This document shows, piece after piece, positions 8,810 to 31,592 of a DNA stretch of 64,000 bases. Every line of letters begins with the position of its first letter. The stretch's first letter is position 1. The notes under the pieces are model-generated. The model was not told where the DNA came from. It searched no databases and saw nothing but the letters and a program-made list of their open reading frames with translations. This DNA is from Opitutaceae bacterium (GTDB taxonomy: Bacteria > Verrucomicrobiota > Verrucomicrobiia > Opitutales > Opitutaceae): positions 1 through 64,000 of the forward strand of contig JANQSC010000028.1 in assembly GCA_028284235.1 (NCBI GenBank), written 5' to 3'. Made by a program: the position numbers and the translations under genes.

Positions 8810-8886
8810 GGGTCGATAGCTCAATCGGTAGAGCAGTTGCCTTTTAAGCAATTGGTTCTGGGTTCGAGTCCCAGTCGACCCACCAC
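8810..8886 (+). tRNA. tRNA-Lys (anticodon UUU)
   Basis: A full 77-nt cloverleaf including an encoded CCA can be drawn. The acceptor arms are GGGTCGA (8810-8816) and TCGACCC (8876-8882), the D stem is GCTC/GAGC, the anticodon stem GTTGC/GCAAT encloses the loop CTTTTAA with anticodon TTT, and the T arm CTGGG/CCCAG encloses TTCGAGT. The discriminator is A8883 and CCA is 8884-8886. The 3' part of the gene (8863-8883) is the left attachment repeat of the genomic island. Confidence 0.97.
8863..8883 (+). repeat. attL-like repeat inside the 3' end of tRNA-Lys
   Basis: These 21 bp of the T arm and 3' acceptor strand are repeated exactly at 31278-31298. Integration of an element into a tRNA 3' end leaves such a repeat at both ends while the gene is rebuilt at one side. 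Confidence 0.85.
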
Positions 8887-8894
8887 TTTGACGA

Positions 8895-8918
8895 AACCGC
8901 CACGGGGCGGTTTTTTTG
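8895..8918 (+). terminator. Rho-independent terminator of tRNA-Lys (left copy)
   Basis: A perfect 8-bp stem (AAACCGCC at 8895-8902 with GGCGGTTT at 8907-8914) ends in a T-run to 8918, nine bases after the tRNA CCA end. A diverged copy with the same layout follows the right attachment repeat at 31310-31331. Confidence 0.9.
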
Positions 8919-9363
8919 TGTAGGATTCGGATATGTCCGTTCGAATCAATAAAGGTGGTTGAAATTTCAAACTATGGCACGGTTTAACGAGTTTCAGCTT
9001 TCGGCAACGGTCTCTGGATTGGCTTCGAAAATAGTACGAGTGTTCTTCGCCCCGAAAACAGTATCGAGGTCGAGTTGGGCCAATCGCGGAAGTCTCTCAG
9101 ATTAAATCTTCACTGTTTCAGCCAGGTAGGTCGCTAGTTCGTTTACGGTTTTATAGTGTCTCATCGTTTTCTCGGCCATTGGACAACCGAAAACAATCCC
9201 GACGTGATTTAGGTCAGGCAGTTGTCAATCGAATATGGGCCCCCTTGCATTGGAACATCCTCTTTGGGATAGTTGGCTCAACTGTTGCTGAATCTCTGGG
9301 CGCTGGATTGTCTCTTTGAGTATTGGTAGTCACAAAGAAATTTCTGATCAAAAAGCTAGTTAG
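8919..9363. other. Non-coding left end of the island with a possible gene remnant
   Basis: No convincing full gene lies here. On the minus strand 9102-9224 is an open frame without an upstream start, whose last 25 codons (9102-9179, MAEKTMRHYKTVNELATYL...) look protein-like and end in TAA. It could be the decayed end of a gene lost during island formation. Nothing resembling a recombinase catalytic motif was seen on either strand. Confidence 0.3.
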
Positions 9364-9381
9364 TTTGACTGTCAAATTGAA
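9364..9381 (+). promoter_or_regulatory. Operator-like motif copy 1 (before the MBL hydrolase)
   Basis: TTTGACTGTCAAATTGAA; the first 13 bases form a perfect odd palindrome TTTGAC-T-GTCAAA. It is the most symmetric of five related copies in the island and lies 42 bp before the ATG at 9424. Confidence 0.6.
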
Positions 9382-9423
9382 GACAACTTGATGACCGTCG
9401 GGTCTGAGTGCAGTGCTTTTCAA

Positions 9424-10206
9424 ATGTCAGTATCAATTAGATTCTTAGGAACAGCGGCATTCGAAATACTAACTGCGAACGGCAAGCGCGTTTTGATAGA
9501 TCCGTATTTGGATGAGAATGAAGTAAGTCCAATTAAGGTGGATGACTTGGATCACCTTGATTTGCTGCTCGTGACGCATGCCGCATACGACCATCTAGGT
9601 GATGCGGAAAAGATCTTAAGAAAATTCCCCGATCTAAAATTGATATGCGGTGCAGATGTTCGAGGATATTTAATGCACCGGGGTATTGATGGGGATCGAT
9701 TGCGAGCTATTCCCTGGGGGATGATGATCGAAGAAGCTGGTGTAAAAGTCCGCCCAGTAGAATCGAGACACTGGTCATATATACAAACTGAAGATGGACG
9801 GTCTTTTTCCAGTATACCTCTCGGCTTTATAGTGTATGCGGATGACGAAACTGGAATCTACCATGCGGGTGATACTACCATATTTAGTGATCTAAAACTC
9901 ATAGGGGAACTGTACAAACCAAAGGTTGGATTGATTAATGTAGGTGTGCCCGAAGATCATAAGGGGGCAGCACACGGAGTTCCAGTTTATTTGACGGGGG
10001 AAATGGATGCTAAAGAAGGGGCAATGGCCTGCGAATGGCTGGGACTAGACTTTGCAATCCCTTGCCATCACGATAATCCGAAGCTCCCGGAAATTGTAAA
10101 GTTCAATGAGATACTATCTAAGAAGTTTGCAGCGGATCCGACGGCTCCGAAACCAGCAATTCTGTCGCCTGGTGAAACACTGACTTTGGAAGGCGCCAAT
10201 AAGTGA
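9424..10206 (+). CDS. MBL-fold metal-dependent hydrolase (UPF0173/UlaG-like)
   Basis: The 260-residue protein has the metallo-beta-lactamase fold landmarks of UlaG-type lactonases: IRFLGTAAFEI at the N-terminus, DPYLDENE, THAAYDHLGD, HAGDTT and CHHDNP near the C-terminus. In the classic HxHxDH motif the second histidine is Ala here (TH-AA-YDH), so one metal site may be changed. A relative, UlaG, opens L-ascorbate-6-phosphate lactone; a lactonase role in this sugar-acid cluster is plausible but unproven. The ATG at 9424 is chosen because MSVSIRFLG fits the family start; the frame is open upstream to a TTG at 9388. It overlaps the next gene by 4 nt. Confidence 0.75.
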   Translation: MSVSIRFLGTAAFEILTANGKRVLIDPYLDENEVSPIKVDDLDHLDLLLVTHAAYDHLGDAEKILRKFPDLKLICGADVRGYLMHRGIDGDRLRAIPWGMMIEEAGVKVRPVESRHWSYIQTEDGRSFSSIPLGFIVYADDETGIYHAGDTTIFSDLKLIGELYKPKVGLINVGVPEDHKGAAHGVPVYLTGEMDAKEGAMACEWLGLDFAIPCHHDNPKLPEIVKFNEILSKKFAADPTAPKPAILSPGETLTLEGANK

Positions 10207-11234
10207 AAGGGGCCCTAAGAGGTGCACTAGTAGGGTGCGGTTATGCTTCAGGCTTTCATTTGGAGGCTTGGGCGGGGGTTGGAGGCGCGGAGATTGTGGC
10301 GGTAACTAGTCTCAATCTAGCTGATGCCCAATTAAGAGCGGATGAATTTGGAATTGCGAATACGTACTCTTCGTTCCACAAAATGCTTGATGTTGAGAAA
10401 CTCGACTTTGTTGATATTGTGACGCCGCCCAATTCTCACTTGGAACTTATCAAGGCTGTAGCTGATCGAGGCATTGCAGTACTATGTCAAAAACCGATAG
10501 CTTCTTCAATGAAGGAGCTAGACGAAATGATCGAGTACTGCGAAAAATCAAATGTTCGATTTATGGTTAATGAGAATGGTCGGTTTCAGCCCTGGTTTCG
10601 TAAGATTAAAAGTCTGGTGGATGACAAGGCAATTGGCAATTTGTTCTACGCGAAAATCGAATCTCGAAGTCGTGCATCGCTTGCGGATGGCGGATTTTCA
10701 AGGTCCTTTTTTCATAAAATGCCACAGTTGATAACCTACGAGTTGGGGGTTCATTTTTTAGATACCTTCCGGTATTTGTTTGGGGAGGCGGAACATATTT
10801 ATTCTCAGATGGCACGAATAAGTGATACGATTGAAGGAGAGGACGTAGCGTTTGTTGCTATGAAGCAAGGTAAAATCATGTCGCTGATCGATATGTCCTG
10901 GGCTTCGCAACCTGTTTTTGACGAAAGTAAGAAGGTGAGCTGGTGCAATTGTCGTTTGGAAGGTGATCGCGGAACCATCATTCTTCATGAAGATGGAACA
11001 CTGATATTGAATACTGGGATCGATGAAGAAAAGTTCGTATTCGGAGGGAATTCGGAAATGCTCGGTTACCGTGGCGCGTTGGAGCACTTCGTTTATGGTC
11101 TGCGGTCCGGTTTTGTGTTCGAAACTGAAGGTGATCAGACGCGTAGAACATTGGAACTCGTGTTTGGGGCTTATGATTCAGCCAAAAACAATAGGTTGTA
11201 TCGTGTTGGTGAGGACAAAAATAGGCTAAATTGA
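10203..11234 (+). CDS. Gfo/Idh/MocA family oxidoreductase (first copy)
   Basis: The 343-residue protein has an N-terminal Rossmann domain (ALVGCGYASGFH, residues 8-19) and the family C-terminal domain. The catalytic EKP lysine motif appears as QKP (Gln96-Lys97-Pro98), and the G-x-H-x-x-D motif is GVHFLD (His184, Asp187). Members oxidise sugars, inositols or sugar acids with NAD(P). The GTG start at 10203 overlaps the stop of the MBL hydrolase by 4 nt, so the two are translationally coupled and probably act in sequence (oxidation to a lactone, then ring opening), which is inference. Confidence 0.82.
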   Translation: MKGALRGALVGCGYASGFHLEAWAGVGGAEIVAVTSLNLADAQLRADEFGIANTYSSFHKMLDVEKLDFVDIVTPPNSHLELIKAVADRGIAVLCQKPIASSMKELDEMIEYCEKSNVRFMVNENGRFQPWFRKIKSLVDDKAIGNLFYAKIESRSRASLADGGFSRSFFHKMPQLITYELGVHFLDTFRYLFGEAEHIYSQMARISDTIEGEDVAFVAMKQGKIMSLIDMSWASQPVFDESKKVSWCNCRLEGDRGTIILHEDGTLILNTGIDEEKFVFGGNSEMLGYRGALEHFVYGLRSGFVFETEGDQTRRTLELVFGAYDSAKNNRLYRVGEDKNRLN

Positions 11235-11266
11235 GTTACAATATAATAATTTTTTATAGAGGTAGT

Positions 11267-12241
11267 ATGAAAAATACAAATTATAAAAGTAAAAGGCAAT
11301 TTTTTAGTTCGAATATGGTCTTTAGGCGGATCATATTCTCAGTGCCTCTCTTATTTGGTTTGTTCGCATGGTGTAATCCAGTTTCTGATACGAATTTAGA
11401 AAAATCTATCGCGAACGTGGGAGCAAAGATCTATTCCGATCGCGACTATACAATAGCTTCGATTCCAGGTTTCCTGGAAGGTGGAGTGAGCTTGCTTAGT
11501 CGTAATGCGGATCGGGAAAAAGTCGGTGAAGGAACTCTTGGGTACGCTACTTTAAGCAGAGAATCGGATGTTTATGTCGCATTTTTATATCCGAGGCTTC
11601 CGCGTTCCTATTCTGCATTTAGGAGCACTGAATTGCGGATTCAAATTAAAGGGTATTTGGGGAAGGAACGGCATTATCATGTTTGGGAAGCCATGCTTCC
11701 TGTGGGGGTCCACACTTTTAGTGGAGTGAACTCCCAGGGTGCCTATGGCTTTATCGACAGTCCGTTTTTCCTTTTTGAAAAGGGGAAAAACGTTGAAAAT
11801 CAGCGAGAAGAGAATTGTCGCATTTCTAGGGGTTTCGGGAGAGGGTCTCTGTTTTATTTTGATAGAGACTATGTAATATCCACTATTCCCGATAAGCTGG
11901 TCGGGTTGTCTGTGGGTATGACACAGAACAATGACAAAATGCGCCCTGATTCACAAATCGAAGATCTGTATCGATTCTCGCTTGCGGAAAAAACAAAGGT
12001 ATATTTGGCTACTGATACGGGAGGTGTACCCTCGTGGCTAAGGAGTTATAAAATGCTCTCTGGCAATAAAAGGATCCGGGTGAATTATCCAGTGAATAAG
12101 GAGAAGCCTGCTCGCACGCAGTACTTTAGTTTGTTTAAGAAAAGAGCTTTCGAGGGAGAGAAAATAGAGTTTGGGTATCCGACAGATTCCTTAGGCTCGA
12201 GCAAGAACTTGTATATCGTATTTGTGATTCCGGTCGATTGA
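11267..12241 (+). CDS. Secreted protein with two tandem DRDYTI-type domains
   Basis: The 324-residue product starts with a basic N-terminus and a hydrophobic segment (IIFSVPLLFGLFAW), a likely signal peptide. The mature part holds two related units of about 140 residues. Each opens with a matching signature, YSDRDYTIASIPGFLEGG in the first and YFDRDYVISTIPDKLVGL in the second, followed by a strand of the form VYVAFLYPRLP or VYLATDTGGVPSWL. Such DRDYT...IP units occur in secreted polysaccharide-processing proteins of this phylum in my recollection; the role is unknown. The ATG at 11267 follows GAGGTAG and is preferred over the upstream extension. It is the last gene of the first forward unit. 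Confidence 0.6.
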   Translation: MKNTNYKSKRQFFSSNMVFRRIIFSVPLLFGLFAWCNPVSDTNLEKSIANVGAKIYSDRDYTIASIPGFLEGGVSLLSRNADREKVGEGTLGYATLSRESDVYVAFLYPRLPRSYSAFRSTELRIQIKGYLGKERHYHVWEAMLPVGVHTFSGVNSQGAYGFIDSPFFLFEKGKNVENQREENCRISRGFGRGSLFYFDRDYVISTIPDKLVGLSVGMTQNNDKMRPDSQIEDLYRFSLAEKTKVYLATDTGGVPSWLRSYKMLSGNKRIRVNYPVNKEKPARTQYFSLFKKRAFEGEKIEFGYPTDSLGSSKNLYIVFVIPVD

Positions 12242-12245
12242 TTGT

Positions 12246-13292
12246 TCATTTGCTGAGATCGGATGAGCCTATTTCCCTTAAGGTTTGTCCGTCTTTCCAG
12301 CCACCATTGATCATTAACAGCTGTGGATGTTCTGGCAGTCCAAACTCGTTTCTCATAAGGGCTCCCGCTAGTTGGTTGGTGGCGCATTCTCCGACTTGTT
12401 TGGCATTTTGCGCTATTCCCGCGCAATCTGGGTAGTTCTCTGCGTCTAGCAGCGCGAATCCAAAGTCGGATGGCTGTTGGAGGCCTACGTTCTCTAGGAT
12501 ATCGGCTCCCTTTAGTCGATCACCAAGTAGTGCATCTGGCTTGTGTTTCAGAAACCATGAGGAGAATGCGGCTTCGTCTAATTCTCCAATAAATTCCGGG
12601 ATCTGGTGCTTTTTGGGGATGCTATTTCTGTAGACTAGATAGGCGCTTTGCCACAATTTACGTGTTCGCTCATCATTGTCCGGTTTTAGGAAAAATCCAA
12701 TTCGTTTATAGCCGTAAGCCTGAAGTTTTCTCAATGCCAGTCCAGCACTGGCGTAGTGGTTGCAGCTGACTCGATGGGTTTCTGGTTTGTCAAAGCTGAA
12801 GCCAATGCTCACAGATGCGTATTTTGGCCAATCAAGTTCGAGCTGAGCATGTGGTACAAACCCTGGAGCTATAATTAATCCACGGATACCCCGATTGAAT
12901 AGGGTGCGGTTGATGTTTTGCTCGGTGGCTCCTTCGGCTGCCATCGAAAAGGTATCTAAGCGATAGCCAAGCTCCTCGGCCCTTTCATTGGCGCCTTGAT
13001 AGAACTCGCGAAATGTAGTGATTTTCCACCATTCATCGCGACTGGAAAAGGGTGTAAGGTATCCAATCGTCTCGCTCGCCTTCGTATTGCGTTGACACTG
13101 GAGGTAGCTCATCAGTCGAGCAACTTTTGGGTCTGGGGTATATCCACGCTTTTTAGCATGCTCCTGGACTCTTTTACAGGTTTCGGGAGATATTCGCGGA
13201 TCGTTTTTGAGGCTCATCGAAACGGTAGTTCTCGATACTCCGAGCTCTTGAGCGATTTGCCGCATATTCGGGCGTTTCGATTTTTTAGGCAT
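12246..13292 (-). CDS. LacI-family transcriptional regulator
   Basis: The 348-residue protein has a LacI helix-turn-helix at about residues 10-30 (MRQIAQELGVSRTTVSMSLKN) with the hinge-proximal YTPDPKVARLMSYL, then a periplasmic-binding-like effector domain (GLIIAPGF, VSIGFSF, IGFFLKPDNDERT, LLGDRLKGADIL). It should bind a sugar-related inducer and repress the island genes. It is divergent from the symporter gene across about 310 bp that contains operator copy 2, and converges with the preceding forward unit with 4 bp between them. Confidence 0.92.
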   Translation of the reverse strand: MPKKSKRPNMRQIAQELGVSRTTVSMSLKNDPRISPETCKRVQEHAKKRGYTPDPKVARLMSYLQCQRNTKASETIGYLTPFSSRDEWWKITTFREFYQGANERAEELGYRLDTFSMAAEGATEQNINRTLFNRGIRGLIIAPGFVPHAQLELDWPKYASVSIGFSFDKPETHRVSCNHYASAGLALRKLQAYGYKRIGFFLKPDNDERTRKLWQSAYLVYRNSIPKKHQIPEFIGELDEAAFSSWFLKHKPDALLGDRLKGADILENVGLQQPSDFGFALLDAENYPDCAGIAQNAKQVGECATNQLAGALMRNEFGLPEHPQLLMINGGWKDGQTLREIGSSDLSK

Positions 13293-13354
13293 GGGGGTTG
13301 GACAGTAAACTAGAATTATTGCTAAAGTTTCAGTGTAATTGGGCCTGAATGGTG

Positions 13355-13372
13355 TTTAACTGTCAAATTGAA
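13355..13372 (+). promoter_or_regulatory. Operator-like motif copy 2 (lacI-symporter divergent region)
   Basis: TTTAACTGTCAAATTGAA, placed 63 bp before the lacI start on one side and 230 bp before the symporter on the other. Read on the minus strand it contains a consensus -35 box TTGACA, so it could also overlap the lacI promoter and allow autoregulation. Confidence 0.6.
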
Positions 13373-13512
13373 AAGGAATTGCGAAGGCTTAGGGTAATCT
13401 ATCGATTGATCCATATCTGAAATGATGGTTCATTTTGTTTGGTCATGCATTCAATGACGGTTTTATTTTAAAAACAGTCAATCGTTTCTGTATTGCATAA
13501 CGCATTCGTGAT

Positions 13513-13540
13513 TTGAAAACAATATCTACAAATATACGAT
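13513..13540 (+). promoter_or_regulatory. Possible promoter of the symporter operon
   Basis: TTGAAA at 13513-13518 and TACGAT at 13535-13540 are separated by 16 bp, in an AT-rich stretch 62 bp before the symporter start. The rest of 13293-13601 holds operator copy 2 and a weaker look-alike, AAAACAGTCAATCG at 13471-13484; no gene is seen there. Confidence 0.3.
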
Positions 13541-13601
13541 AGGTTAACTCTAAATAAAGGCGAGGGAAATGAGGAATTGATGATAATTTATTTTTGAATG
13601 T

Positions 13602-15668
13602 ATGTTAGGATTAAGTATAATAGATCTGGCAGTGTTAATTGTCTATTTTGGGGTCGTATTAGCAATAGGGTATTGGGCGAGAAGCCGTATACATAATCAA
13701 GAAGATTTTTTTCTTGGAGGTAGGAGGTTTGGTAAGCTAATTCAGACGTTTGCAGCATTTGGGCAAGGTACTTCATCGGAAAGCGCTGTTGGTGTAACGA
13801 CTACTGTATACTCGAATGGTGCATCTGGGATATGGTCCAGTCTTCTGTATATATTTGCGGCTCCTGTGTATTGGATGACTTCCCCTTGGTATCGAAGACT
13901 GCGTCTTCTTACGTTGGGGGATTTCTTTTTTGAGCGATACCAGTCTCGACGAATGGCGATGACTTACTCAGTGTTTGCGGCAATTGGATCAATGGCAGTC
14001 GTTGCCATTGGGGTTGCGGCCATGAGTAAAACGGTTGTGGCTTTAACGCCAAAAAGCTTGGATGAATTGAGCTTTGAAGAGCGTGTGGAGCATGACTTGG
14101 GGCGCGAACTGCTCAACTTAGAGGCACTCGATTATGGTTCTTTGACTGCGGAGAATAAGTCTCGAATAGCGGAGTTGCAGAAAATTGATCCGAAAGTCGC
14201 TTTTTCGCATGTCAACGAAGTGGGCCTGGTCATATTTGTATCAATAATTGTAGTGCTCTATGGAATCATGGGGGGGTTGCATGCAGCATTTCTGACCGAC
14301 CTACTGCAAGGAGGGCTAATAATTATACTATCAGTTCTGCTGCTTCCCTTTGCAATGGTTAAGGTGAATGCGTTCTACGGAGGAGAGTCAGCTTGGACTG
14401 CTTTTGGAATTGTGAAAGAACAATTGCCGGAGGCCTCTTTGAAACTTTTTGGATCTGCCTATACGGTGGACTTTACTTGGTACTATATAGTAAGTCTATG
14501 CATTATGGTAACGTTGAATGTAGCGATCCAACCAAACCAGTTGGTTGCTATCGGTTCTGCTAAAGACGAATATTCGGCACGATTTGGGTTCGTGGCAGGA
14601 AACTTTATGAAAAGGGCAGTTACTGTACTTTGGGGGATTTTTGCACTCTTTGCGATCGTTCTTTACGAGGGGACACTTCGTAATCCGGACCTGGTGTGGG
14701 GCTATGCAACGTTGGATCTACTCGGCTCGCTCAATGTCGGTTTGGTTGGCTTGATGACTGCGTGTCTGTTGTCTGCATTGATGTCTACGGCCGACTGTCA
14801 TATGATTACCGCTTCGAGTTTGTTAACCAATAATGTTTACGGTGAATTGTTCCCGGGAAAAGAAGAGAAGCACTACCTAGTAGCTGGCCGAATATTCGGA
14901 TTACTCGTTATTTCTGGTGGAGCTTGGTTGGCGGTTTCTTTTAGCGATATTCTATCGATGTTGAAGTTCCTTTGGGGGTTTTTTAGCGTGTTTGCCCCGA
15001 GTTTCTGGTTGGGTATGGTTTGGCGGCGGGCAAGTGCCAGGGGAGCCTGGTGTTCCATAGGGGTTGGCGCGATGGTGTTCGTTCTTCTTCCGGCGATTCT
15101 GCCCTCAACGTTTTCCAGTTTGCGTTACAATGAGGATTTGCTCGTTGAAACGCCGGCTAGGGTGTTTGAGCGGAGTACGAGTGAATCTTCAGCTGAACAG
15201 CAACAGATACCTGGAAAATCAGTGTATTGGAGTGATGGAATTGGCTTCGATAAAGAGGGTGTTCTCCGAGGAAAGGGGATGTTCAATTTGGAGCTTTGGC
15301 TGATAAGTCGATTCGGCTTTGACTTGTCTAAAAACAGCTATGCGATCAACGAAACACTCAGGAATTGCGCCCGGATATTATTACCCTTTGGAGTTTTGTT
15401 GTCTATCAGTTTTTTCGGACGAAATAGGCTATCAAATGGCATGGAGCGGTTTTTTGCGAAAATGAGAGTGCCAGTTGTTGTAGATCGTGAAGAAGATCGT
15501 CACCTTCTCGAGCTTGCCTACGAAAGCGCCAATTCTAATCAACAAATTAAGCTTTTTCCGGAAAGTGAGTGGGAGTTTAAGCGTTGGAATAAAGAGGATG
15601 CGTGGGGATTCGTTGTCAGTTGCTTGGCCGTAGTTTGTATACTGGCGAGTTTACTCGTTATTCTGTAA
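13602..15668 (+). CDS. Sodium:solute symporter family (SSS) transporter
   Basis: The 688-residue integral membrane protein has the SSS plan: first helix VLIVYFGVVLAIGYWA, then NQEDFFLGGRRFGKLIQTFAAFGQGTSSES, typical of the substrate and sodium-binding region, and more than ten hydrophobic segments. A hydrophilic insert at about residues 145-200 (LDELSFEERVEHD...) and another at about 510-570 make it longer than typical family members. The SSS group imports sugars, inositols or acids with sodium. It heads a run of forward genes (isomerase, lactonase, dehydrogenase, fusion protein) and is the likely uptake step of the island pathway. Confidence 0.88.
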   Translation: MLGLSIIDLAVLIVYFGVVLAIGYWARSRIHNQEDFFLGGRRFGKLIQTFAAFGQGTSSESAVGVTTTVYSNGASGIWSSLLYIFAAPVYWMTSPWYRRLRLLTLGDFFFERYQSRRMAMTYSVFAAIGSMAVVAIGVAAMSKTVVALTPKSLDELSFEERVEHDLGRELLNLEALDYGSLTAENKSRIAELQKIDPKVAFSHVNEVGLVIFVSIIVVLYGIMGGLHAAFLTDLLQGGLIIILSVLLLPFAMVKVNAFYGGESAWTAFGIVKEQLPEASLKLFGSAYTVDFTWYYIVSLCIMVTLNVAIQPNQLVAIGSAKDEYSARFGFVAGNFMKRAVTVLWGIFALFAIVLYEGTLRNPDLVWGYATLDLLGSLNVGLVGLMTACLLSALMSTADCHMITASSLLTNNVYGELFPGKEEKHYLVAGRIFGLLVISGGAWLAVSFSDILSMLKFLWGFFSVFAPSFWLGMVWRRASARGAWCSIGVGAMVFVLLPAILPSTFSSLRYNEDLLVETPARVFERSTSESSAEQQQIPGKSVYWSDGIGFDKEGVLRGKGMFNLELWLISRFGFDLSKNSYAINETLRNCARILLPFGVLLSISFFGRNRLSNGMERFFAKMRVPVVVDREEDRHLLELAYESANSNQQIKLFPESEWEFKRWNKEDAWGFVVSCLAVVCILASLLVIL

Positions 15669-15689
15669 TTTAAATACTGATTGTTTTAT

Positions 15690-16565
15690 ATGAAATTGGG
15701 TGCAGCATGTTATGGATTCCGTGAACAGACTGTTTCGAATTATTTCGAGATCGTAGCAAGTCTTGGGCTTAGATATGTGGAGGTGCCTCTTTACTGGCAA
15801 GTGATTGAGGATCCAAAAAGGCAATTTAACTATAGGAAAACTGAGGGAATACAGGCTCTGCTTGACTGTGCCGAAAAAGCTAATGTAAAAATTGCAACAG
15901 GAGTTACAAATTGCGTTCTTGCACTGAATGCTACTCATAAAACTGGAACAGTAGATAAGAGCAACGTAGCATTTGGATTAGCTTGGGCAAAACGATCAAT
16001 TGATATTTGCGAACAGCTTGACGTGAAAATATTACGTGTTATGGAACCGAATGTCTGGCCGCACGAGCTAGATTTTGCTTCGGATTGGATGAAAGAATGC
16101 GGCAGGGTATTGGGTGAACTTGGCGAATACGCTGTCGACAAGGGGGTTGTGGTTGCGGTTGAGAATTACGGCCTTACATCAGCGCAAGTTGAAGAAATAC
16201 TGGTTGCGGCTAATAGTCAAAATGTTGGCACTTTGTATGATCCATGTAATTACTATCGCATTGGCGAAGATCCTTTAGAGGCGTTGAGACGATTGAGGGA
16301 GCGAATAGTTTATTGCCATTTAAAAGATGCAAAACGAAATAGCGGGGTCGATCCGAATCTATTATTTGAAGGTTCTAGATGGGCCCCTTCATTTGCAGTT
16401 GGAGAGGGGGAAATTGATTGGCAGCCAATTGTTTCTGAACTAACAGAATTCTTTTGCGGATATGTATGTATTGAATATGAGGATCACAAAGATGTGGTTC
16501 GTGGGATGAAGTCGAGTCTCGATTATTTCAAACGACAATCTAGTTGCACCGCATCAAGAGTTTAG
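15690..16565 (+). CDS. Sugar phosphate isomerase/epimerase-like TIM barrel
   Basis: The 291-residue protein belongs to the xylose isomerase-like/AP endonuclease 2 superfamily. Metal-site landmarks appear in order: VAVENYG (Glu ligand), LYDPCNYYRIG (Asp region), VYCHLKDAK (His ligand), GEGEIDWQPIV and CIEYED (Glu ligand). Family members isomerise or epimerise ketoses, dehydrate keto-inositols (IolE) or act on hydroxypyruvate. With neighbouring Gfo/Idh enzymes a 3-keto-sugar or keto-inositol substrate is plausible. The ATG at 15690 (MKLGAACYGFRE) is taken rather than the frame start at 15681. It follows the symporter by 21 bp. Confidence 0.82.
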   Translation: MKLGAACYGFREQTVSNYFEIVASLGLRYVEVPLYWQVIEDPKRQFNYRKTEGIQALLDCAEKANVKIATGVTNCVLALNATHKTGTVDKSNVAFGLAWAKRSIDICEQLDVKILRVMEPNVWPHELDFASDWMKECGRVLGELGEYAVDKGVVVAVENYGLTSAQVEEILVAANSQNVGTLYDPCNYYRIGEDPLEALRRLRERIVYCHLKDAKRNSGVDPNLLFEGSRWAPSFAVGEGEIDWQPIVSELTEFFCGYVCIEYEDHKDVVRGMKSSLDYFKRQSSCTASRV

Positions 16566-16568
16566 CAT

Positions 16569-17474: not shown

Positions 17475-17478
17475 TGTA

Positions 17479-18564: not shown

Positions 18565-18618
18565 TTGAATCCTAAATAAGCAATTATGTTTCAGCGTACC
18601 TGAGTGTAAGGATATTTT

Positions 18619-21047: not shown

Positions 21048-21062
21048 TTTAAACTGTCAAAT
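21048..21062 (+). promoter_or_regulatory. Operator-like motif copy 3 (before the beta-propeller gene)
   Basis: TTTAAACTGTCAAAT, sharing the core ACTGTCAAAT with copies 1 and 2, and lying 55 bp before the ATG at 21118. The left arm carries one extra A, so the dyad is weaker than in copy 1. Confidence 0.5.
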
Positions 21063-21117
21063 AACTTAAATTGGAAGATATTTGAGTTTGTTTAACTATA
21101 TCTCTAATTCTAGAAAC

Positions 21118-23208: not shown

Positions 23209-26200
23209 ATGAACAACCCACAAAGAACCCTACCAATGAAATTGTCGTATGTAACGATGTTTGATGACTCGAAAATTGCTAGATTTAGGATTTTGAAAAA
23301 TTTCCTGAATCTATTTACTATAATCAGTGTAGTAACAGCAAATACAATTATAACAGCTCAAGATTCGGATGACGAAGTTTTTGTGCTTTCTCCATTTGCA
23401 GTAGAAGCCGGTGAAGATGTTGGATATGTAGCGACTAGTACACTGGCGGGTACGCGTATTAAGACGGAGATGAAGGATCTGGCAAATTCTATTACGGTAG
23501 CGACCAGACAGATGATGGATGACTTAAATGCGAACGACGGAGCGGAGCTGTTCCAGCATTTAGGTAACCTTGAGTCAGGAGGAATTGATGGAAACTATTC
23601 AGGTACGGATACAAGCGCGTCCTATATTAACCACACTTTGCCATCCCGTGATCCATCTACCGCTAATCGTATTCGTGGATTGGCTAGTGCAGATAACACG
23701 CGCAATTTCTTTGCTACGGGAATCACTTTTGATGGTTACAGCGTTAGTCGTGTTGATGTTAACCGAGGAGCCAACTCCACTTTATTCGGTCTTGGCTCTC
23801 CGGGGGGGATTATCAATCACCAATCAGTAGGAGCGATTTTTGATGATACAAATCAAATTGGTCTAAATTATGGTTCGTTTGGATCGCATCGAATTACTAC
23901 GGATATCAATAGGGTTTTGCTCGAGGACAAGCTAGCTGTTCGTTTTGCCGGCCTCTATGAGCAGCGAGAGTGGAGGCAAGAGCCGACGTTCGATCGTGAC
24001 AAGAGAGCGTTGATCGCGTTGAATTTTAAGCCAAGTGAACGTGGCAATTTTAAATTGAGCTACGAAAGTGGAGCGATTGATGCCCGTAGACCCCGTCCGA
24101 ATGGACCTGCGGATACGTTAACTCGTTGGTGGGAGCCTCAGTCTATCGACCCAGAAACTGGCCAGCGTATTACGCATAATCCTCTAGTCGATAATTTTCG
24201 TGATATAGATAGGGATGTTTTGAGGGCGCCAGGTTACTGGTTCTCTTACACTGGAGTTTTGTATGACTATGATTCAACAGGAGAATCGTCTCATGCGCAA
24301 CTTGCTTGGTATCTAAACTTCCCTTCGAGGGATGAATCTGGTCTCTCATTCCAGTCAAGCCTAATATCGCTAACTATGGGTGAGCAGTACTATCCTTCTG
24401 CAACTGCTGCGGCGAATGGCATCGAGCACGGGAGTTTCTGGGGAAATGCAGAGGTGTTGGATCGATCGATTTTCGATTATGTGAATCATTTAATCGATGG
24501 CCCAAACAAGGGGGAGTGGGAGAATTTCAATGTAATTAACGCTTCGTACGACCACAGCTGGCAATTTAACTGGGGCCATGCCGGTGTTGAGTTGGCGTTT
24601 GCTGATGAGAGTGTTTATCGCGCGTATTTCGATACGTTTCCTCGTGTTCGTGGATATGCTCTTAACATTGATTTGAATACTCATCGACAGGATGGATTTG
24701 AAAACCCAAATTTCGGCCGCGCGTTCATGGCAGGGGAAGTCGATCGGAATGATACCTTTAATGATCGTAAAACACTGCGCGCAACGGGATTTACAGAAGT
24801 TGACTTCACCCGTTCAGACAATCGTTTCGTCAATTGGCTCGGTAGGCAGCAGACAACGGTGTTCGGACAGGACTATGTTAGGGATAGTTTTGGTATGAGC
24901 AGTGGTAACCGCATGCACGAGGACTATATCCGAGAGGTTACTGGCGGAACGAATCTAAACCAGAGAATTGGTCAAGCCAGAATATACGTTGCGCTCAGTC
25001 CGGATTTGTCGAACCGCGATTCTCCGGTCGGAGCGAACATACAGCCGGTAGACTACTTGCTTGATGATACTGAAACCACTGGATGGAGATTCACCGGTGA
25101 CAGTATAGAGACTGGAATTCCAGCAATGGTATATGATGTGAGGAATGATTTTGAAACTGCGCGGATGCTCGCGGATAGTGTAAATCTTACTCGATCTAAT
25201 ACAAATTCACTCGCACTGGTTCACCAGGGCCGGTTTTTTGATGGTGGGTTAGTTGCTACTTATGGAGCTCGGAATGATCGTGTTCGAAATTACGGGCATA
25301 CAGGTATCACGAGAAATGCCTTTAACTTGATTGATGTTCCATCTCTTGAATTGGGCGCCGACCCAAATCAGTACTTTGAGGCCAACACCCAATCCTTAGG
25401 ATTGGCGTTGCATGTGGACAATTATGTAAATCTGCCCGGGGGTCTGGGGCTGAGCTTCCATTGGGGCGAAGCTGAGAACTTTCAAATTGTTAATCCCAGG
25501 ACGGACATTTTTGGAAATCCCATTGCGCCGCCTGGCGGAGACACTGTGGACAAGGGGTTCACGGTTAGTTCGAGGGATCGAAAACTGATTGCGAGGTTCA
25601 ACTGGTACGAATCGAACTCTACTAATACTGACTTCAGGCTTTTTCCTTTTACGCAAAACACTGATAGGCTTGTTGTTCAATACAACACTCAGGAGGAGCG
25701 GGACGCGGCCGGATGGCAAGGCCCTCCAGACTCTTACAAAGAGCTTACGAACTGGACAATTGTCGATGCGCCCGAGAGTATCAGCGGCCAGAGAGTTGAG
25801 CAGGTGGGAGCGCCTCCGATAAGCGATACTCAGTCGACATCGTCTGAAGGAATGGAACTGGAGGTCACCTTTTCACCAAATCAAAATTTGACGACTTCAT
25901 TCAATGTCGCGAGACAAGAGGCTTCTCGCAGCAACATTGGTCCGGCGCAGAAGGAGTACATCGCGTTAAGGAGCCCAGAATGGATTGATGGGGCCGGTAG
26001 AGTGTTGATAGCGGACAATTCTAATCAAACAGTAAATGTTCGGATCTTTGACAGTTTGTTAAATCAATTGAATTCGGCCCTTTCTAGGGAGGGTCAGCTA
26101 GTTCCTGAACTGGCGGAGTGGCATGCTAATTTTCTCGCGAATTACCGTTTCGACGACGATTCGCCGCTGAAGGGCTTCAATTTCGGTGGATCTCTCAATT

Positions 26201-26502
26201 GGATTGACGAGAAAGCGCTCGGCTATCCTATAGTCGAAGTGCTTTCAGAAAATGGAAGAACTATTGAGGTTCCGGATCTTGCAAATCCTTGGATGGACGA
26301 GGCTCGAACTCGATTGAACTTATTTTTCGGATACAAAAAGAGACTGAACGATAAGATTGACTGGAGATTGCAGCTCAACCTAAACAATGTCCTCGAAAGT
26401 GGTGAGGCGGTCACTGTTGGTGTTCAGCCGGATGGTCGTGCGCGTTCTGCTGTTTGGCGAGAGGGTATTACCTATAATCTACGATCAACATTCGATTTTT
26501 AG
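23209..26502 (+). CDS. TonB-dependent outer membrane receptor
   Basis: The 1097-residue protein has an N-terminal export region to about residue 50 (ending near TIITAQ), the lead-in VFVLSPFAVEAGEDVGYVA followed by TLAGTRI, a plug domain (ITVATRQMMDDL, RIRGLASADNTRNFFATG, VDVNRGANSTLFGLGSPGG) and a long beta-barrel ending in an aromatic C-terminus (RSTFDF). It imports a large or scarce ligand across the outer membrane using TonB energy. The LSPF...TLAGTR signature is typical of receptors expanded in Opitutae. With a sulfatase and an FG-GAP protein downstream, a poly- or oligosaccharide ligand is likely. Confidence 0.93.
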   Translation: MNNPQRTLPMKLSYVTMFDDSKIARFRILKNFLNLFTIISVVTANTIITAQDSDDEVFVLSPFAVEAGEDVGYVATSTLAGTRIKTEMKDLANSITVATRQMMDDLNANDGAELFQHLGNLESGGIDGNYSGTDTSASYINHTLPSRDPSTANRIRGLASADNTRNFFATGITFDGYSVSRVDVNRGANSTLFGLGSPGGIINHQSVGAIFDDTNQIGLNYGSFGSHRITTDINRVLLEDKLAVRFAGLYEQREWRQEPTFDRDKRALIALNFKPSERGNFKLSYESGAIDARRPRPNGPADTLTRWWEPQSIDPETGQRITHNPLVDNFRDIDRDVLRAPGYWFSYTGVLYDYDSTGESSHAQLAWYLNFPSRDESGLSFQSSLISLTMGEQYYPSATAAANGIEHGSFWGNAEVLDRSIFDYVNHLIDGPNKGEWENFNVINASYDHSWQFNWGHAGVELAFADESVYRAYFDTFPRVRGYALNIDLNTHRQDGFENPNFGRAFMAGEVDRNDTFNDRKTLRATGFTEVDFTRSDNRFVNWLGRQQTTVFGQDYVRDSFGMSSGNRMHEDYIREVTGGTNLNQRIGQARIYVALSPDLSNRDSPVGANIQPVDYLLDDTETTGWRFTGDSIETGIPAMVYDVRNDFETARMLADSVNLTRSNTNSLALVHQGRFFDGGLVATYGARNDRVRNYGHTGITRNAFNLIDVPSLELGADPNQYFEANTQSLGLALHVDNYVNLPGGLGLSFHWGEAENFQIVNPRTDIFGNPIAPPGGDTVDKGFTVSSRDRKLIARFNWYESNSTNTDFRLFPFTQNTDRLVVQYNTQEERDAAGWQGPPDSYKELTNWTIVDAPESISGQRVEQVGAPPISDTQSTSSEGMELEVTFSPNQNLTTSFNVARQEASRSNIGPAQKEYIALRSPEWIDGAGRVLIADNSNQTVNVRIFDSLLNQLNSALSREGQLVPELAEWHANFLANYRFDDDSPLKGFNFGGSLNWIDEKALGYPIVEVLSENGRTIEVPDLANPWMDEARTRLNLFFGYKKRLNDKIDWRLQLNLNNVLESGEAVTVGVQPDGRARSAVWREGITYNLRSTFDF

Positions 26503-26579
26503 GTTAAGGAATCTACTGACTAAACCAAATTGGGGATTCCGTGCGTGTGCTCGGTGTCCCCAACAATTAATATTCAGGA

Positions 26580-27776
26580 ATGCTGATGATTAAGCGACTT
26601 GCTATGTATCTCCCTGTTTTTGCTTTCATTTTTATTTTTCAATTGATAGCTTTGGGAGACGAATTCGAATTTAGACACCATTTTGCCGATCCAAATTTGC
26701 CGGGAGACGCCTACGGTCAAACATCTCTTGTAGATATTGATAGAGATGGGGACTTGGATTTCGTCACGGGAAGAAGGGGTGGTGATATTTACTGGTATGA
26801 ATATAAGAGTGCGGATACTTGGGTAAGACATCTGTTGGGCGTAGAGTCTGCATCGGATGTAGGTGGAGCCTCATGCGATATTGATGGCGACGGGTGGGTC
26901 GATTTTGTTACCGGGGGTGTTTGGTATCGGAATCTTGGACGATCGAGAAATTTTATCTTTACACGGCACGTCTTCGACGAATCGCTTGAGGCTGTACACG
27001 ACCTAATTATCGCAGATGTAAATGGTGATGGTATAGATGATGTAGTGACCATGTCGGATCAAAATAGTTTAAGGTGGTATCGAGTTTCAGATGATCCGTT
27101 CAGTAGCTGGCATAAGACTGAAATAGGCGAATCGGTTCATGCGGGTATAACTTCCGGGGACATTGATGGTGATGGCGATTTGGATATAGTCAGGAGCAAT
27201 GCTTGGTTCGAGAATGGAGGAGCGGGTGAATCGTGGACCAAACATGTAATCTCTGCTCCTTGGGGTAGAGACATGATTGAGCATCAAAGAAACGCCACGA
27301 TGACGCAAGTTCTGGATGTCGATGGGAATGGGCGACTCGATATTCTTCTAGTAGAGTGTGAAAATAGAGGAGCTAGGATCGCATGGCTATCGGCTGGAAT
27401 CGATCCGCGAGACGAATGGCACGTTTATGAGCTGACTCCTGCGGGGGAGGTTTTGGGAGCACTGCATTCGCTGAAGGTCGCGGATTTTAACGATGACGAT
27501 TTGCTTGACTTTGTCACGGTGGAGATGGAGTGGGTGCGAGGGGCGAAGTCCCCGCGATGGTGGCTTTTTGTAAACCAAGGCGAAGGAGAATTTGTACCTG
27601 AGGTTATTTTGGATGCGAATCTTGGTGGGCATGAAACTGAGATTGGGGATGTAGATGGAGATGGAGACCTTGACCTTTGTTCAAAACTCTGGCGGCCGAT
27701 GGAGGACAATGGAAACGGAGGGGCAAACCATTTCAGTTTTCTTGAGAACTTGAAACGTCAAAAAGGAAATCGTTAA
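26580..27776 (+). CDS. Secreted FG-GAP/VCBS repeat protein
   Basis: The 398-residue protein has a signal peptide (hydrophobic core LPVFAFIFIFQLIALG) and at least seven calcium-binding DxDxDG-type loops, among them DIDRDGDLDFV, DIDGDGWVDFV, DVNGDGIDDVV, DIDGDGDLDIV, DVDGNGRLDIL and DVDGDGDLDLC. Together they form an integrin-like beta-propeller. Such proteins occur beside polysaccharide-degrading enzymes and may bind glycans at the cell surface; no enzyme motif is seen. It lies 77 bp after the TonB receptor and 2 bp before the sulfatase, so the three are likely co-transcribed. Confidence 0.88.
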   Translation: MLMIKRLAMYLPVFAFIFIFQLIALGDEFEFRHHFADPNLPGDAYGQTSLVDIDRDGDLDFVTGRRGGDIYWYEYKSADTWVRHLLGVESASDVGGASCDIDGDGWVDFVTGGVWYRNLGRSRNFIFTRHVFDESLEAVHDLIIADVNGDGIDDVVTMSDQNSLRWYRVSDDPFSSWHKTEIGESVHAGITSGDIDGDGDLDIVRSNAWFENGGAGESWTKHVISAPWGRDMIEHQRNATMTQVLDVDGNGRLDILLVECENRGARIAWLSAGIDPRDEWHVYELTPAGEVLGALHSLKVADFNDDDLLDFVTVEMEWVRGAKSPRWWLFVNQGEGEFVPEVILDANLGGHETEIGDVDGDGDLDLCSKLWRPMEDNGNGGANHFSFLENLKRQKGNR

Positions 27777-27778
27777 GA

Positions 27779-29218
27779 ATGACCTGGGTTTTTGAGGCTG
27801 AAGACTCTGTTGTGGCTAAAATTGGAATGTTCTGTTTAACAGTTGCCGTTGCTACTGCTGAAGTGACTGTAGTTGCAAAATCGGAGCAACGCCCAAATGT
27901 GATTTATGTTCTGGCGGATGACCTCGGCTACGGGGATTTGTCCTGCTATGGACAGAGAAAGATTGAAACTCCAAACATCGATCGACTTTCGGAAGAAGGA
28001 ATTCGGTTTGTAAACTACTACTCGGGCAGTACGGTTTGCAGCCCTTCACGTGCGGTGTTGATGACAGGTCAGCATACTGGTCGAGTCTATTTGCGAGGGA
28101 ATTTGAAAGGAGAGTTAGGAGCGGAGCTAGATCCGAAAATGCGAGTACTCCCGGAGTTGTTCAAAGAGGCAGGTTATGTGACAGGCGCATTTGGCAAATG
28201 GGGGTTAGGTCAAACGAACACGGATGATGCGCAGAATCCGCTAGTCCATGGTTTCGATCAGTTTTTTGGTTGGAAGAGCCAAACACTTGCCCACACTTAT
28301 TATCCATCTACTCTTGTAGAGAATGGAAAGGAGATTGAGCTTGAGGAGGGCACTTATGCTCATGATCTAGTGATGGAGAAGGCGTTCGCCTTTATCGCAG
28401 AAAGTGCTCGATCAGATAGACCATTCTTTTGCTATATCCCAACTGCAGTGCCCCACGCAGCGATGCATGCTCCAGCGGAGTTGCACGAGAAATGGAGATC
28501 GCGTTTTCCTCAGTTTGAAGAATTGATAGGGGAATACGACGCTCTTGACGAATATTGTCCTGACGTTCAAAACCCGATTGCTGCTTATGCGGCAATGATC
28601 GAGAATCTGGACAATCAGATTGGGAAGATCTTGGATCTTTTGAATTCGTTAAGTTTGGATGAGAAAACTCTAATCGTCTTCACTAGCGACAATGGGCCGC
28701 ATAGAGAAGGTGGGCATGATCCAATATTCTGGAACTCGAATGGCGAGCTCCGCGGATTCAAGCGGGACCTGTATGAAGGGGGCATTCGCAGCCCAATGTT
28801 GGCCCGATGGCCGGGCGTGATTTCAGCGGGATCCGAAACAACTCATATTAGCGCATCCTGGGACGTGTTGCTGACGATGGCTGAGCTACTTGGATTGAAG
28901 GTTCCAGAGCAGTCCAATGGAGTATCGTTTATGCCCACTCTGGAAGGTAAGGCTGGCGAGCAAAAGCTGCATTCGTACTTGTATTGGGAATTTTGTATTG
29001 GCCCCGCGCAGGAACTGGTGTCGCAAGCTGTCCGTGTCGGAGAGTGGAAAGCCGTGGTTGAAAAGGGAAAATCGCTGGAACTCTATAATTTGAGAGAAGA
29101 TCCCGGGGAAACGATGGATCAATCGGAGCGTCATCCAGAGATCGTGACTCGGATTGAGGCGATGATGAGCGATGCGAGAATTCCGTTGACGGCCGAGTCG
29201 CGCAAACGGGAATTGTAG
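27779..29218 (+). CDS. Type I (formylglycine-dependent) sulfatase
   Basis: The 479-residue protein is an alkaline-phosphatase-fold sulfatase. The modification motif C87-S-P-S-R91 (VCSPSRAVLMTGQHTGR) gives the active-site formylglycine. Metal ligands include Asp47-Asp48 (VLADDLGYGD) and Asp-Asn in FTSDNGPH, and GKWGLG keeps the catalytic lysine segment. It should remove sulfate esters from a glycan. Secretion is likely: an internal ATG at 27827 begins a short signal-like stretch (MFCLTVAVATAEV). It needs a formylglycine-generating enzyme, and one is encoded at 49487-50461. Confidence 0.9.
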   Translation: MTWVFEAEDSVVAKIGMFCLTVAVATAEVTVVAKSEQRPNVIYVLADDLGYGDLSCYGQRKIETPNIDRLSEEGIRFVNYYSGSTVCSPSRAVLMTGQHTGRVYLRGNLKGELGAELDPKMRVLPELFKEAGYVTGAFGKWGLGQTNTDDAQNPLVHGFDQFFGWKSQTLAHTYYPSTLVENGKEIELEEGTYAHDLVMEKAFAFIAESARSDRPFFCYIPTAVPHAAMHAPAELHEKWRSRFPQFEELIGEYDALDEYCPDVQNPIAAYAAMIENLDNQIGKILDLLNSLSLDEKTLIVFTSDNGPHREGGHDPIFWNSNGELRGFKRDLYEGGIRSPMLARWPGVISAGSETTHISASWDVLLTMAELLGLKVPEQSNGVSFMPTLEGKAGEQKLHSYLYWEFCIGPAQELVSQAVRVGEWKAVVEKGKSLELYNLREDPGETMDQSERHPEIVTRIEAMMSDARIPLTAESRKREL

Positions 29219-29538
29219 TGAATGCTGATGCGGCAATTTGAGGCCTGATAAATGGTACGAAGATGTCTCAAGCCCGAAATAGTTATCAACGAGTTATTCT
29301 CCATATTGAATCTAGTTTTCGCAAGTGAGGCCGCTTTTGGAAATAGTGCCAATAAACATACTTGATGCGTGTTGCTCGTTGATTTCTTCGCTATGTTTTA
29401 TCGTTTCTTTTCGCCGTGGAAAGCTGCGTGTTTCTTTGGAGGCCTCTTCGTGGCTGAGAGGTTTTGGCTCAGCTTTGTAAGCATAGACTACAATGGTCAG
29501 AAGAATTGTCATGCGTCTGGTCCGCGACCTGCTAGCGA
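29219..29538. other. Non-coding region after the sulfatase
   Basis: About 320 bp with only short frames on both strands. Hypothetical frames here have no start signal or family likeness and are not accepted as genes. Confidence 0.3.
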
Positions 29539-29551
29539 TTTAACTGTCAAG
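29539..29551 (+). promoter_or_regulatory. Operator-like motif copy 5 (before gluconokinase)
   Basis: TTTAACTGTCAAG, the shared 12-base left portion of the motif, 270 bp before the kinase start. The right-hand TTGAA extension seen in copies 1 and 2 is lost. The rest of the leader to 29820 is very AT-rich and holds no gene. Confidence 0.45.
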
Positions 29552-29820
29552 CGATCATTGATTTGGCTTTTAAAAATGAATCTGGTTGGGTCTATCGCTG
29601 CGAGCGGAAAGTAGCGAATCTGCATTTGTTTGTTAATAACTAGTTCATATGTTTAGAGTTGCTAATTCCGATTTTTAAAAAACATATTGTGTAATAATAA
29701 ATGATTTATTATATATTTTAAATATAATTAAACTCGATAAATTAAAATTTATTATTTCTCGTTAAGGCGAAGTGTATTCATTGATTTTCAATGCCATGTT
29801 TTTTTAAAAATAATCGTGAT

Positions 29821-30306
29821 ATGATATATGTTTTTATGGGAGTATGTGGTTGTGGAAAAACTACGATAGGTATGGAATTCGCTCGCAGGATGGGGATTCA
29901 GTTTTTTGACGCTGATGATTTTTATCCAAACGAGAACATTGTTAAAATGAGCAAGGGGTATCCTCTTACTGATGAAGATCGCGTGGGCTGGCTAAAAACA
30001 CTAGGCGAGAGTATAGGTAAGTGGAGTTTGGACGGTAGCGTAGTATTAGCGTGTTCGGCATTGAAAAGGTCTCATCGAGAAACCCTTGAATTGAAAGGCA
30101 GGAACAAAGTAGTTTACGTATTCCTTGATGGAGCAACTGAGCTGCTGAAACAGCGAATCTCCAATCGAGTAGATCATTTTATGAAAGAAGAAATGCTATC
30201 AGGTCAACTAGATGAGCTTGAACGACCAGAAAATGCATTGAGAGTAGAGATAGATCGACCGGTGGCGGATGTTGTGTCTTTTATAGTGAAAGAACTCTAT
30301 CGTTAG
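29821..30306 (+). CDS. Gluconokinase-like sugar acid kinase
   Basis: The 161-residue protein matches GntK-type gluconokinases in length. It has a P-loop GVCGCGKTT (residues 7-15), the substrate segment FDADDFYPNENIVKMSKGYPL followed by TDEDRVGWL, a SALKRSHR loop and the FMKEEMLSGQLDELERP lid region. It would phosphorylate gluconate or a related aldonate to the 6-phosphate. This gives the island a final activation step after dehydrogenase and lactonase. The ATG at 29821 (MIYVFMGVCG) is the family-like start; the frame is open upstream to 29791. Confidence 0.88.
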   Translation: MIYVFMGVCGCGKTTIGMEFARRMGIQFFDADDFYPNENIVKMSKGYPLTDEDRVGWLKTLGESIGKWSLDGSVVLACSALKRSHRETLELKGRNKVVYVFLDGATELLKQRISNRVDHFMKEEMLSGQLDELERPENALRVEIDRPVADVVSFIVKELYR

Positions 30307-31277
30307 AGAGATTTAGATCTTACGGATCTCCCATGGAACAATAGAAGGAACTCCATTGGATAGGCAATTCACGATGAAGCGCATTTTTCAAAGACCAGGC
30401 TGAGTTGTTCGCCTTCATCTGAACCATTCGCGCGCGTAGGGCTGTTCACCTGTGTAAGTTGGGAGGAACCTCGGTAGGCTGGCACATTTTTGCTGAATCG
30501 GTTCTCGACGAACGAGAAAAGTCGACTGTCGATTGAGAGGACGCGATGTTCAACCGAGCGGATGATCCGCGTCTCGCTCGAGACCGCATGGGCTTGTGTA
30601 TGGAAGAAATCTCCCGCGGGTGCAGCATCAGCCTCCTTGCTTTTACTGCTAGAGGAGTAGGGGCGCGGGCATCAAGTAGACCCGGCCGTGTTCGCGCCTT
30701 GGCAAAAGCCCCTCTATGTGGGGTCTCGGCGAATTTCCGCTCGGCGCTGCCCTGTTCCGGGATCCCAGTCTACCGTCGGCTTGGGGTGAACGGTTGGGGT
30801 CTTCGCTTACGGGTTCGAGCCTGTGCCAAAGGGCAAGCTTCTGTGGGAGACAGAGATCGCCCGTGCTTGGCGGGAGTATCCGACACTCGATAGGCGGCCG
30901 CGGAGTTGCGTTCTCTGGGCTTCGGGGCCACCAAGTCCAGCGCGACCGCTTTGAGGAAGGGCTGTGCAGTTCTGGAGGCGGCAGGATCTGTCAGAGCTTC
31001 CCCTAGGAAGGGGGCCGGGCATCAGACTTTGTTTTGTCTGGATTCGAAATAGCGCTTGCGATCGTTTGCTCTCAAGTGATCGAGTTTGCAGATGAAGTGA
31101 TTGAGTTGGCGATTACTAGAAGCAGAACGTTAGGAACATCTTACTAGGAGACCAGGGGTGGAGCTTTCAACTGCTTATTTGCCGTTCGGGTTCGAGGGTC
31201 GTGAGGATGTGGCGCAACTCATTGATAGAATTATTAAATTGTTCTTATTCAGGTATTTGTGATGAATTCGAATAATA
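30307..31277. other. Right end of the island: non-coding, with a GC-rich block and a gene remnant
   Basis: No full gene is supported. From about 30450 to 31020 the sequence is strikingly GC-rich compared with the AT-rich island, with frames open on both strands but of poor protein character; short inverted repeats such as CCCC-TCTATGT-GGGG near 30711 suggest RNA structure or a repeat unit. At 31134-31262 a start-less frame encodes 42 residues that look protein-like (PGVELSTAYLPFGFEGREDV) and end in TGA. It may be the decayed tail of a gene lost from the island. Confidence 0.35.
31134..31262 (+). pseudogene. Possible C-terminal gene remnant next to the right attachment repeat
   Basis: A 42-codon frame with no start codon in a useful place (a TAG stops the frame just before it) ends at 31262, 15 bp before the attachment repeat. 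The residues VELSTAYLPFGFEGREDVA then QLIDRIIKLF have normal protein composition. An upstream frame over about 31060-31145 (CSQVIEFADEVIELAITRSR) could be a frameshifted neighbour. The family was not recognised, and no recombinase motif is present. Confidence 0.25.
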
Positions 31278-31298
31278 GTTCGAGTCCCAGTCGACCCA
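31278..31298 (+). repeat. attR-like repeat of the tRNA-Lys 3' end
   Basis: Exact 21-bp copy of 8863-8883 (T arm plus 3' acceptor strand and discriminator A), without the CCA that follows the left copy. It marks the right end of the island. Confidence 0.85.
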
Positions 31299-31309
31299 AT
31301 ACTTCGTTG

Positions 31310-31567: not shown

Positions 31568-31592
31568 GGAACTTTAATTAAACAGAAACGTC
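31568..31592 (+). promoter_or_regulatory. Possible ECF-type promoter before the sigma factor gene
   Basis: GGAAC at 31568-31572 and CGTC at 31589-31592 are separated by 16 bp, the spacing and boxes of many ECF sigma promoters. It ends 17 bp before the ATG at 31610, which would allow autoregulation with a very short leader. Confidence 0.35.

Follow-up and report, generated by a model that had tools for sequence, protein, structure and literature searches.

How a 22.4-kb block of foreign, sugar-related genes came to lie directly behind an intact tRNA-Lys gene is the question raised by a 64,000-nucleotide (nt) stretch of an Opitutaceae bacterium genome (positions 1 to 64,000 of contig JANQSC010000028.1, assembly GCA_028284235.1; hereafter the window). 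The block, termed the island below, ends in a second copy of the tRNA 3′ end. It is probably horizontally acquired DNA whose insertion at the tRNA-Lys 3′ end, a site that serves as an integration hotspot in this genus, was most likely effected by a tyrosine integrase that has since been lost. The coordinates of all features are collected in Table 1.

A preliminary description of the locus had reported that the last 21 bp of tRNA-Lys before its CCA recur exactly at 31278-31298. This recurrence was confirmed, with the left copy starting at 8862, so that the start given there (8863) was one base late. The exact 21-mer occurs twice in the whole 6.13-Mb genome and the reversed control does not occur at all; by chance, ~5e-4 exact 21-bp repeats would be expected in 64 kb (calculated as N^2/2 x 4^-21), before a tRNA 3′ end is even required. 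Inexactly, the repeat continues through the terminator-like hairpin behind each copy (8862-8915 versus 31278-31331; 54 nt, 83%). At the right copy ATA replaces CCA and the hairpin is imperfect, which fits a displaced, unused tRNA end. The 23 nt upstream of the right repeat match the tRNA at only 8 of 23 positions, a value equalled by 24% of random 23-mers from the island. Therefore, an origin of the right repeat as a 47-bp copy eroded by simple point decay was rejected.

The base composition was also said to change at both points, and here the agreement is clear on the left and approximate on the right. Two-breakpoint maximum likelihood over bases 1-44000 delimited a block at 8729-30428 with a guanine-cytosine (GC) content of 44.6%, compared with 57.6% outside (log-likelihood gain 372). 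The GC content at third codon positions is 0.33-0.49 in 14 island genes versus 0.63-0.77 in seven flanking genes. The left step is sharp and lies at the tRNA, the low-GC block beginning within ~160 bp of its 3′ end. Between the low-GC cargo and the right repeat lie a GC-rich segment of ~0.6 kb and then ~0.3 kb more; since the GC content per 100 bp is 0.53-0.64 across 30.4-31.0 kb, the right composition step does not fall at the repeat. The only open reading frame (ORF) of this GC-rich tail (115 amino acids, aa) had no Pfam or PHROG match. A transposon origin of the tail was considered and dropped: its only match in its own genome is itself, and one weak match was seen in G009 and two in G010. 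A smaller second GC dip (~0.50) lies outside the island at 44001-47000 of the window.

To place the island among its relatives, both conserved flanks, the cbiX-like gene and the extracytoplasmic function (ECF) sigma factor gene, were searched in the same 150 genomes of the family, and distances were read by hand where the best hits share contig and strand. The window genome (G000) belongs to a genus of 11 genomes, six of which were included, and those ECF relatives that carry names are Opitutaceae and Puniceicoccaceae bacteria, Pelagicoccus included. Within the genus, the gap between the flanks measures 22.9 kb in G000, 26.8 kb in G001, 17.3 kb in G002 and 5.8 kb in G010, and in G004 and G005 the two genes lie on separate contigs. 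Outside the genus, the two genes share contig and strand in 27 genomes, with gaps of 1.0-1.8 kb in 15, of 3.1, 3.9 and 8.8 kb in three, of 39 and 44 kb in two and of >400 kb in seven; in the remaining family genomes the flanks are on separate contigs or opposite strands, or one gene is absent. The gaps of 39 and 44 kb (G117, contig C6; G014, contig C1) are possible large insertions in the same slot. An empty site in relatives had been proposed as a check, and this was borne out in part: the 15 sister-genus genomes possess a near-empty slot, and no clean empty site was seen among the six genus genomes searched.

The contents of the slot differ from genome to genome. In a pairwise comparison of ORFs of at least 100 aa (E 1e-6) from the G000, G001, G002 and G010 slots and the G003 element, the window sulfatase resembles two G001 sulfatases (30-31% identity) and an integrase remnant of G001 resembles the integrase of G003, with no other likeness detected. 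Among 10 hand-chosen ORFs from the neighbouring slots, Pfam named in G001 members of the sulfotransferase, glycosyltransferase, amidase and sulfatase families; in G002 an alpha/beta hydrolase and a protein with a TonB C-terminal domain; and in G010 a triosephosphate isomerase, a transposase-like protein and an IrrE-like protein. The possibility that relatives all share the same genes at this place, which would have contradicted the preliminary description, is thus not what we found. This is the pattern of one location with variable content that defines additive flexible genomic islands, here between species of one genus, each represented by one genome, and not between strains.

Genus-mates carry integrases or their remains at this same tRNA. 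In G003, a 377-aa tyrosine integrase (PF00589, E 1.2e-20; PHROG 'integrase', E 1.2e-45) starts ~100 bp 3′ of tRNA-Lys, on a contig that ends 9.7 kb further on in a 24-nt tRNA fragment. An integrase N-terminus, 35% identical, lies directly 3′ of the tRNA in G004 and is interrupted by the contig end. In G001, 108 N-terminal residues of an integrase remain behind the second tRNA copy, and a 29-residue stretch after the tRNA of G002 resembles the G001 and G004 ends, a weak match when taken alone (E 1.4). Tandem tRNA fragments, two in G001 (46 and 47 bp) and three in G002 (45, 47 and 36 bp), separate cassettes in these genomes; the window has one cassette. Six of seven genus fragments start at tRNA position 30-32, in the anticodon stem, the exception being the last G002 copy, which matches positions 41-76 only. 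The palindromic element end TAAGTCNCTAATTAATAGAGACTTA is found after the tRNA in G001, G002, G003 and G004, and stands behind several of the tRNA copies.

Relatives of the G003 integrase occur in 82 of 252 family genomes. Among the best 30 of these loci a tRNA was seen in 25, the integrase lying 5′ of it and pointing away in 20, on the 3′ side in four and otherwise in one. Eleven elements were analysed. Eight are 5′-side elements; in three of them (G015, G031 and G060) the 5′ half of the tRNA recurs exactly (41, 37 and 42 bp, respectively), and five are without an exact repeat, four of them in stretches of ~8 kb or less and G014 over 60 kb. The loci L224:5256-5296 with L225 (G015) and L240/L239 (G031) were singled out. 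Two elements are on the 3′ side, G133 with a repeat and G030 without one over 60 kb, and no tRNA was seen for G123. G133 (Pelagicoccus mobilis, NZ_JAENIL010000075.1) combines an integrase, ~10 kb of DNA and a 75-bp repeat (93%) at the same tRNA; this repeat includes the terminator, so that a terminator behind each copy, the arrangement seen in the window, may be normal for insertions of this type. The 5′-side polarity is uncommon, as Islander lists 5′ fragments in only 159 of 3919 islands (PMC4383910).

The orientation of the tRNA gene complicates the comparison with sister genera. In all eight sister-genus loci examined (of the 15 with short slots), tRNA-Lys lies between cbiX and the ECF gene on the opposite strand. 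The same gene lies upstream of ECF on the opposite strand in 64 of 80 named ECF loci (120-406 bp away in 55, 1.2-3.8 kb in nine); one locus, L125 (G010), has the orientation of the window, and 15 have no tRNA-Lys in the stretch examined. Read in reverse, the window tRNA promoter region aligns with those of G005 and G007 (52-54 nt, 83-85%). On these comparisons, tRNA-Lys and its promoter (window 8703-8885) are inverted in G000, G001, G002, G003, G004 and G010 relative to most of the family. The G010 tRNA-Lys (L046:14603-14678) is of the genus type except for a hybrid acceptor end, GTCGGCCTACCA, which resembles that of G005 and G007 and may be the footprint of a 3′-end replacement by integration; no second G010 tRNA-Lys copy was found near ECF. 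A stretch of 17 nt in G045 (L091:3504-3520), 123 bp downstream of the G045 gene, is identical to the 3′ end of the window tRNA-Lys and is perhaps the scar of a lost element.

Table 1. Coordinates of the island, its borders, its cargo and its conserved flanks in the window.
Feature	Position	Strand	Evidence or remark
CbiX-like, left conserved flank	7797..8702	+	
tRNA-Lys (TTT), intact, CCA encoded	8810..8885	+	ARAGORN; Rfam tRNA 76.9 bits
21-bp repeat, left copy	8862..8882	+	tRNA positions 53-73, T-arm to discriminator
Terminator-like hairpin 3′ of tRNA (ACCGCC...GGCGGTTTTTTT)	8886..8918	+	sequence reading
Island	8886..31277		22.4 kb; maximum-likelihood low-GC core 8729-30428
Candidate operator TTTGACTGTCAAA	9364..9376		further sites at 13355, 21049, 22922, 29539
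Metallo-beta-lactamase-fold hydrolase	9388..10206	+	PF12706 E 4.7e-21
Gfo/Idh/MocA oxidoreductase 1	10203..11234	+	PF01408
Protein without Pfam match	11231..12241	+	
LacI-family regulator	12246..13292	-	PF00356
Sodium:solute symporter	13602..15668	+	PF00474
Xylose-isomerase-like TIM barrel	15681..16565	+	PF01261; IolE-like under cut-off (TIGR04379)
SMP-30/gluconolactonase-type protein	16569..17474	+	PF08450
Gfo/Idh/MocA oxidoreductase 2	17479..18564	+	IolG-like, under cut-off
TPR protein	18619..20844	+	TPR families; N-terminal CxxCH-like stretch by eye from translation
Protein without Pfam or NCBIfam match	21082..22449	+	signal-like start by eye
TonB-dependent receptor	23209..26502	+	PF07715
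FG-GAP repeat protein	26580..27776	+	PF13517
Sulfatase	27779..29218	+	PF00884 E 1.8e-60
Gluconokinase	29791..30306	+	TIGR01313 152.8 bits, exceeding cut-off 113.75
GC-rich tail segment	30428..31000		partial similarity (65-68%) to one place in G009, two in G010
21-bp repeat, right copy	31278..31298	+	displaced tRNA 3′ end; ATA replaces CCA
Second terminator-like hairpin	31299..31335	+	imperfect
ECF sigma factor, right conserved flank	31565..32212	+	

The reading of the cargo as a sugar-acquisition cluster and not a mix of phage genes is supported by the sugar-use families named by Pfam and NCBIfam. Among the 15 island ORFs compared with Pfam and PHROGs, none was labelled structural, packaging or integration, and several match PHROGs of unknown function; the structural or packaging genes of a prophage or phage satellite were thus not seen. 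The cargo is most likely a self-contained catabolic set, comprising a TonB receptor, a sulfatase, a sodium symporter, Gfo/Idh dehydrogenases, a lactonase, a gluconokinase and one LacI-type regulator. The TonB receptor and the sulfatase are predicted to be located outside and the sodium symporter inside, and a plausible putative route would lead from uptake via oxidation to a lactone and hydrolysis to an aldonate to phosphorylation. The substrate and the regulation of the cargo are likewise predicted.

The LacI protein presumably pairs with the candidate operators. The motif TTTRACTGTCAAA, allowing up to 2 mismatches, is found at five places in the window (7 matches over both strands), compared with a mean of 2.4 for shuffles, of which 1 in 100 reached 7. 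All five sites fall within the 3.5 kb of non-coding island DNA, upstream of the genes starting at 9388, 13602 (together with the divergent LacI gene), 21082, 23209 and 29791. Because the motif was built from three island copies, independent support comes only from the sites at 21049 and 29539. As for the source of the cargo, the best symporter relatives among 252 family genomes reach ~50% identity, and the best relative of the TonB receptor in 372 order genomes (64%) is found in G022. In the 20 kb of G022 examined, the receptor and the TPR gene are direct neighbours, accompanied by distant sulfatases, and the other island genes have no match there; a donor was not found.

Combined, these observations can be accommodated by a single insertion. 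A tyrosine integrase would have inserted the DNA at the 3′ end of tRNA-Lys, whereby the incoming end would have rebuilt the tRNA and supplied its own terminator, and the old tRNA 3′ end with its terminator would have been displaced to 31278. The integrase gene would later have been lost and the right-hand fragment decayed or truncated, so that the island now looks immobile. The entry by an integrase is suggested by the neighbours at the same site, and its later loss is presumed.

Several observations weigh against this scenario. No integrase family is among the Pfam or PHROG matches of the 15 island ORFs, and a tblastn search with the integrase of G003 as query likewise found nothing in the island at E up to 10. 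In the genome scan with PF00589, the sole window match is the XerC-like gene at 5512, which is part of the flank and outside the island, as G001, G002, G004 and G005 have it too. Furthermore, the window repeat starts at tRNA position 53, in the T-arm, unlike the genus fragments, and the palindrome TAAGTCNCTAATTAATAGAGACTTA is absent from the island. On the right, the GC step falls 850 bp short of the repeat, on its island side, and the repeat borders score 21 log-likelihood units under the two-breakpoint optimum. Finally, an exact empty site with the same tRNA orientation was not seen among the six of 11 genus genomes in the flank search, and with their inverted tRNA the sister genera do not provide exact empty sites. 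The crossover in the T-stem is common, being the class of 1836 of 3919 islands in Islander (PMC4383910), and another integrase is therefore possible for the window island. The proposal of a metabolic island with defined borders at tRNA-Lys is largely supported as regards a foreign block in a variable tRNA-Lys slot, with the right GC border and the missing integrase among its qualifications.

The main rival, which we consider unlikely, takes the fragment at 31278 as left over from an integrase element or array of greater age that was cut by deletion, the sugar cluster having entered the open slot by homologous or illegitimate recombination. Arrays and eroded fragments such as the last G002 copy are indeed present in genus-mates, and the shorter repeat with its other start position, the lack of the element-end palindrome and the GC-rich tail between cargo and right repeat would all suit such a history. 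However, more events are needed, and the left terminator and the low-GC block that runs continuously from near the tRNA 3′ end fit one insertion. A joint proposal, that integrase-less metabolic cassettes like that of the window ride in arrays and that the tRNA inversion of the genus is a by-product of such recombination, seems improbable.

It is highly improbable that the island is a non-autonomous passenger moved in trans by the integrase of another element in the slot or cell, even if the G001 slot holds two cassettes with one integrase remnant seen and none was found in the window island. When G000 was searched with the G003 integrase, the single match was a stretch of 73 residues on contig C80. 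Besides two full-length matches that we take to be Xer-like, the other PF00589 match of full-length size, on contig C30, lies by tRNA-Pro and has an E of 5.4 against the G003 integrase. In addition, the window repeat starts at a different position from the repeats of that integrase family. An assembly artefact, in which the tRNA repeat served as the joint of a chimeric contig, would be conceivable for a draft genome of 81 contigs assessed with no reads, but both junctions lie within one 79-kb contig and the flanks are syntenic with relatives (on the left xerC-like, ompA-like and cbiX-like genes, on the right ECF-sigma, dapB and dapA, where xerC, dapA and dapB are names that we assigned). This explanation is extremely improbable. 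We thus retain insertion by a tyrosine integrase as the preferred explanation.

Candidatus Methylopumilus, which belongs to another phylum than the window host, has a comparable system. Its additive flexible genomic island fGI-2 is situated at tRNA-Lys(CTT); 79-80% of the fGI-2 proteins are of unknown function, whereas most of the window cargo has a named family (PMC10872708). In Alteromonas, the additive fGI1 and a strain-specific island use a conserved tRNA as the cassette target, as in the window, although host and genes are others; one of these islands carries metabolic genes and terminates in a repeat that comprises the final 52 nt of tRNA-Leu, compared with 21 bp here (PMC4119200 and PMC5217437). 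The addition of cassettes at a tRNA, with 3′-end repeats marking them, is known from the additive flexible genomic islands of Alteromonas and Methylophilaceae, and the window island works alike.

The window island resembles the tDNA islands of Islander in the intact tRNA, the displaced 3′ fragment downstream in the same orientation and a size within 2-200 kb; Islander also needs an integrase gene inside and would therefore reject this island, in which none was found (PMC4383910). Tycheposons, described with a tyrosine recombinase (PMC10872708) and named in PMC11389934, share the nutrient cargo adjoining a tRNA, and differ in that no tyrosine recombinase was found in the window island. Our literature search found no paper on tRNA-Lys genomic islands with an integrase in Verrucomicrobiota.

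Overall, the island appears to be genuine and of an ordinary type, situated at a tRNA hotspot shared with related bacteria. It offers an example of an island that integrase-requiring island finders would miss. The comparison locates an integration hotspot in a group of Verrucomicrobiota that has been little studied and ties it to a testable integrase family, and it suggests an exchange of entire regulated pathways for sugar use, as units, at this hotspot.

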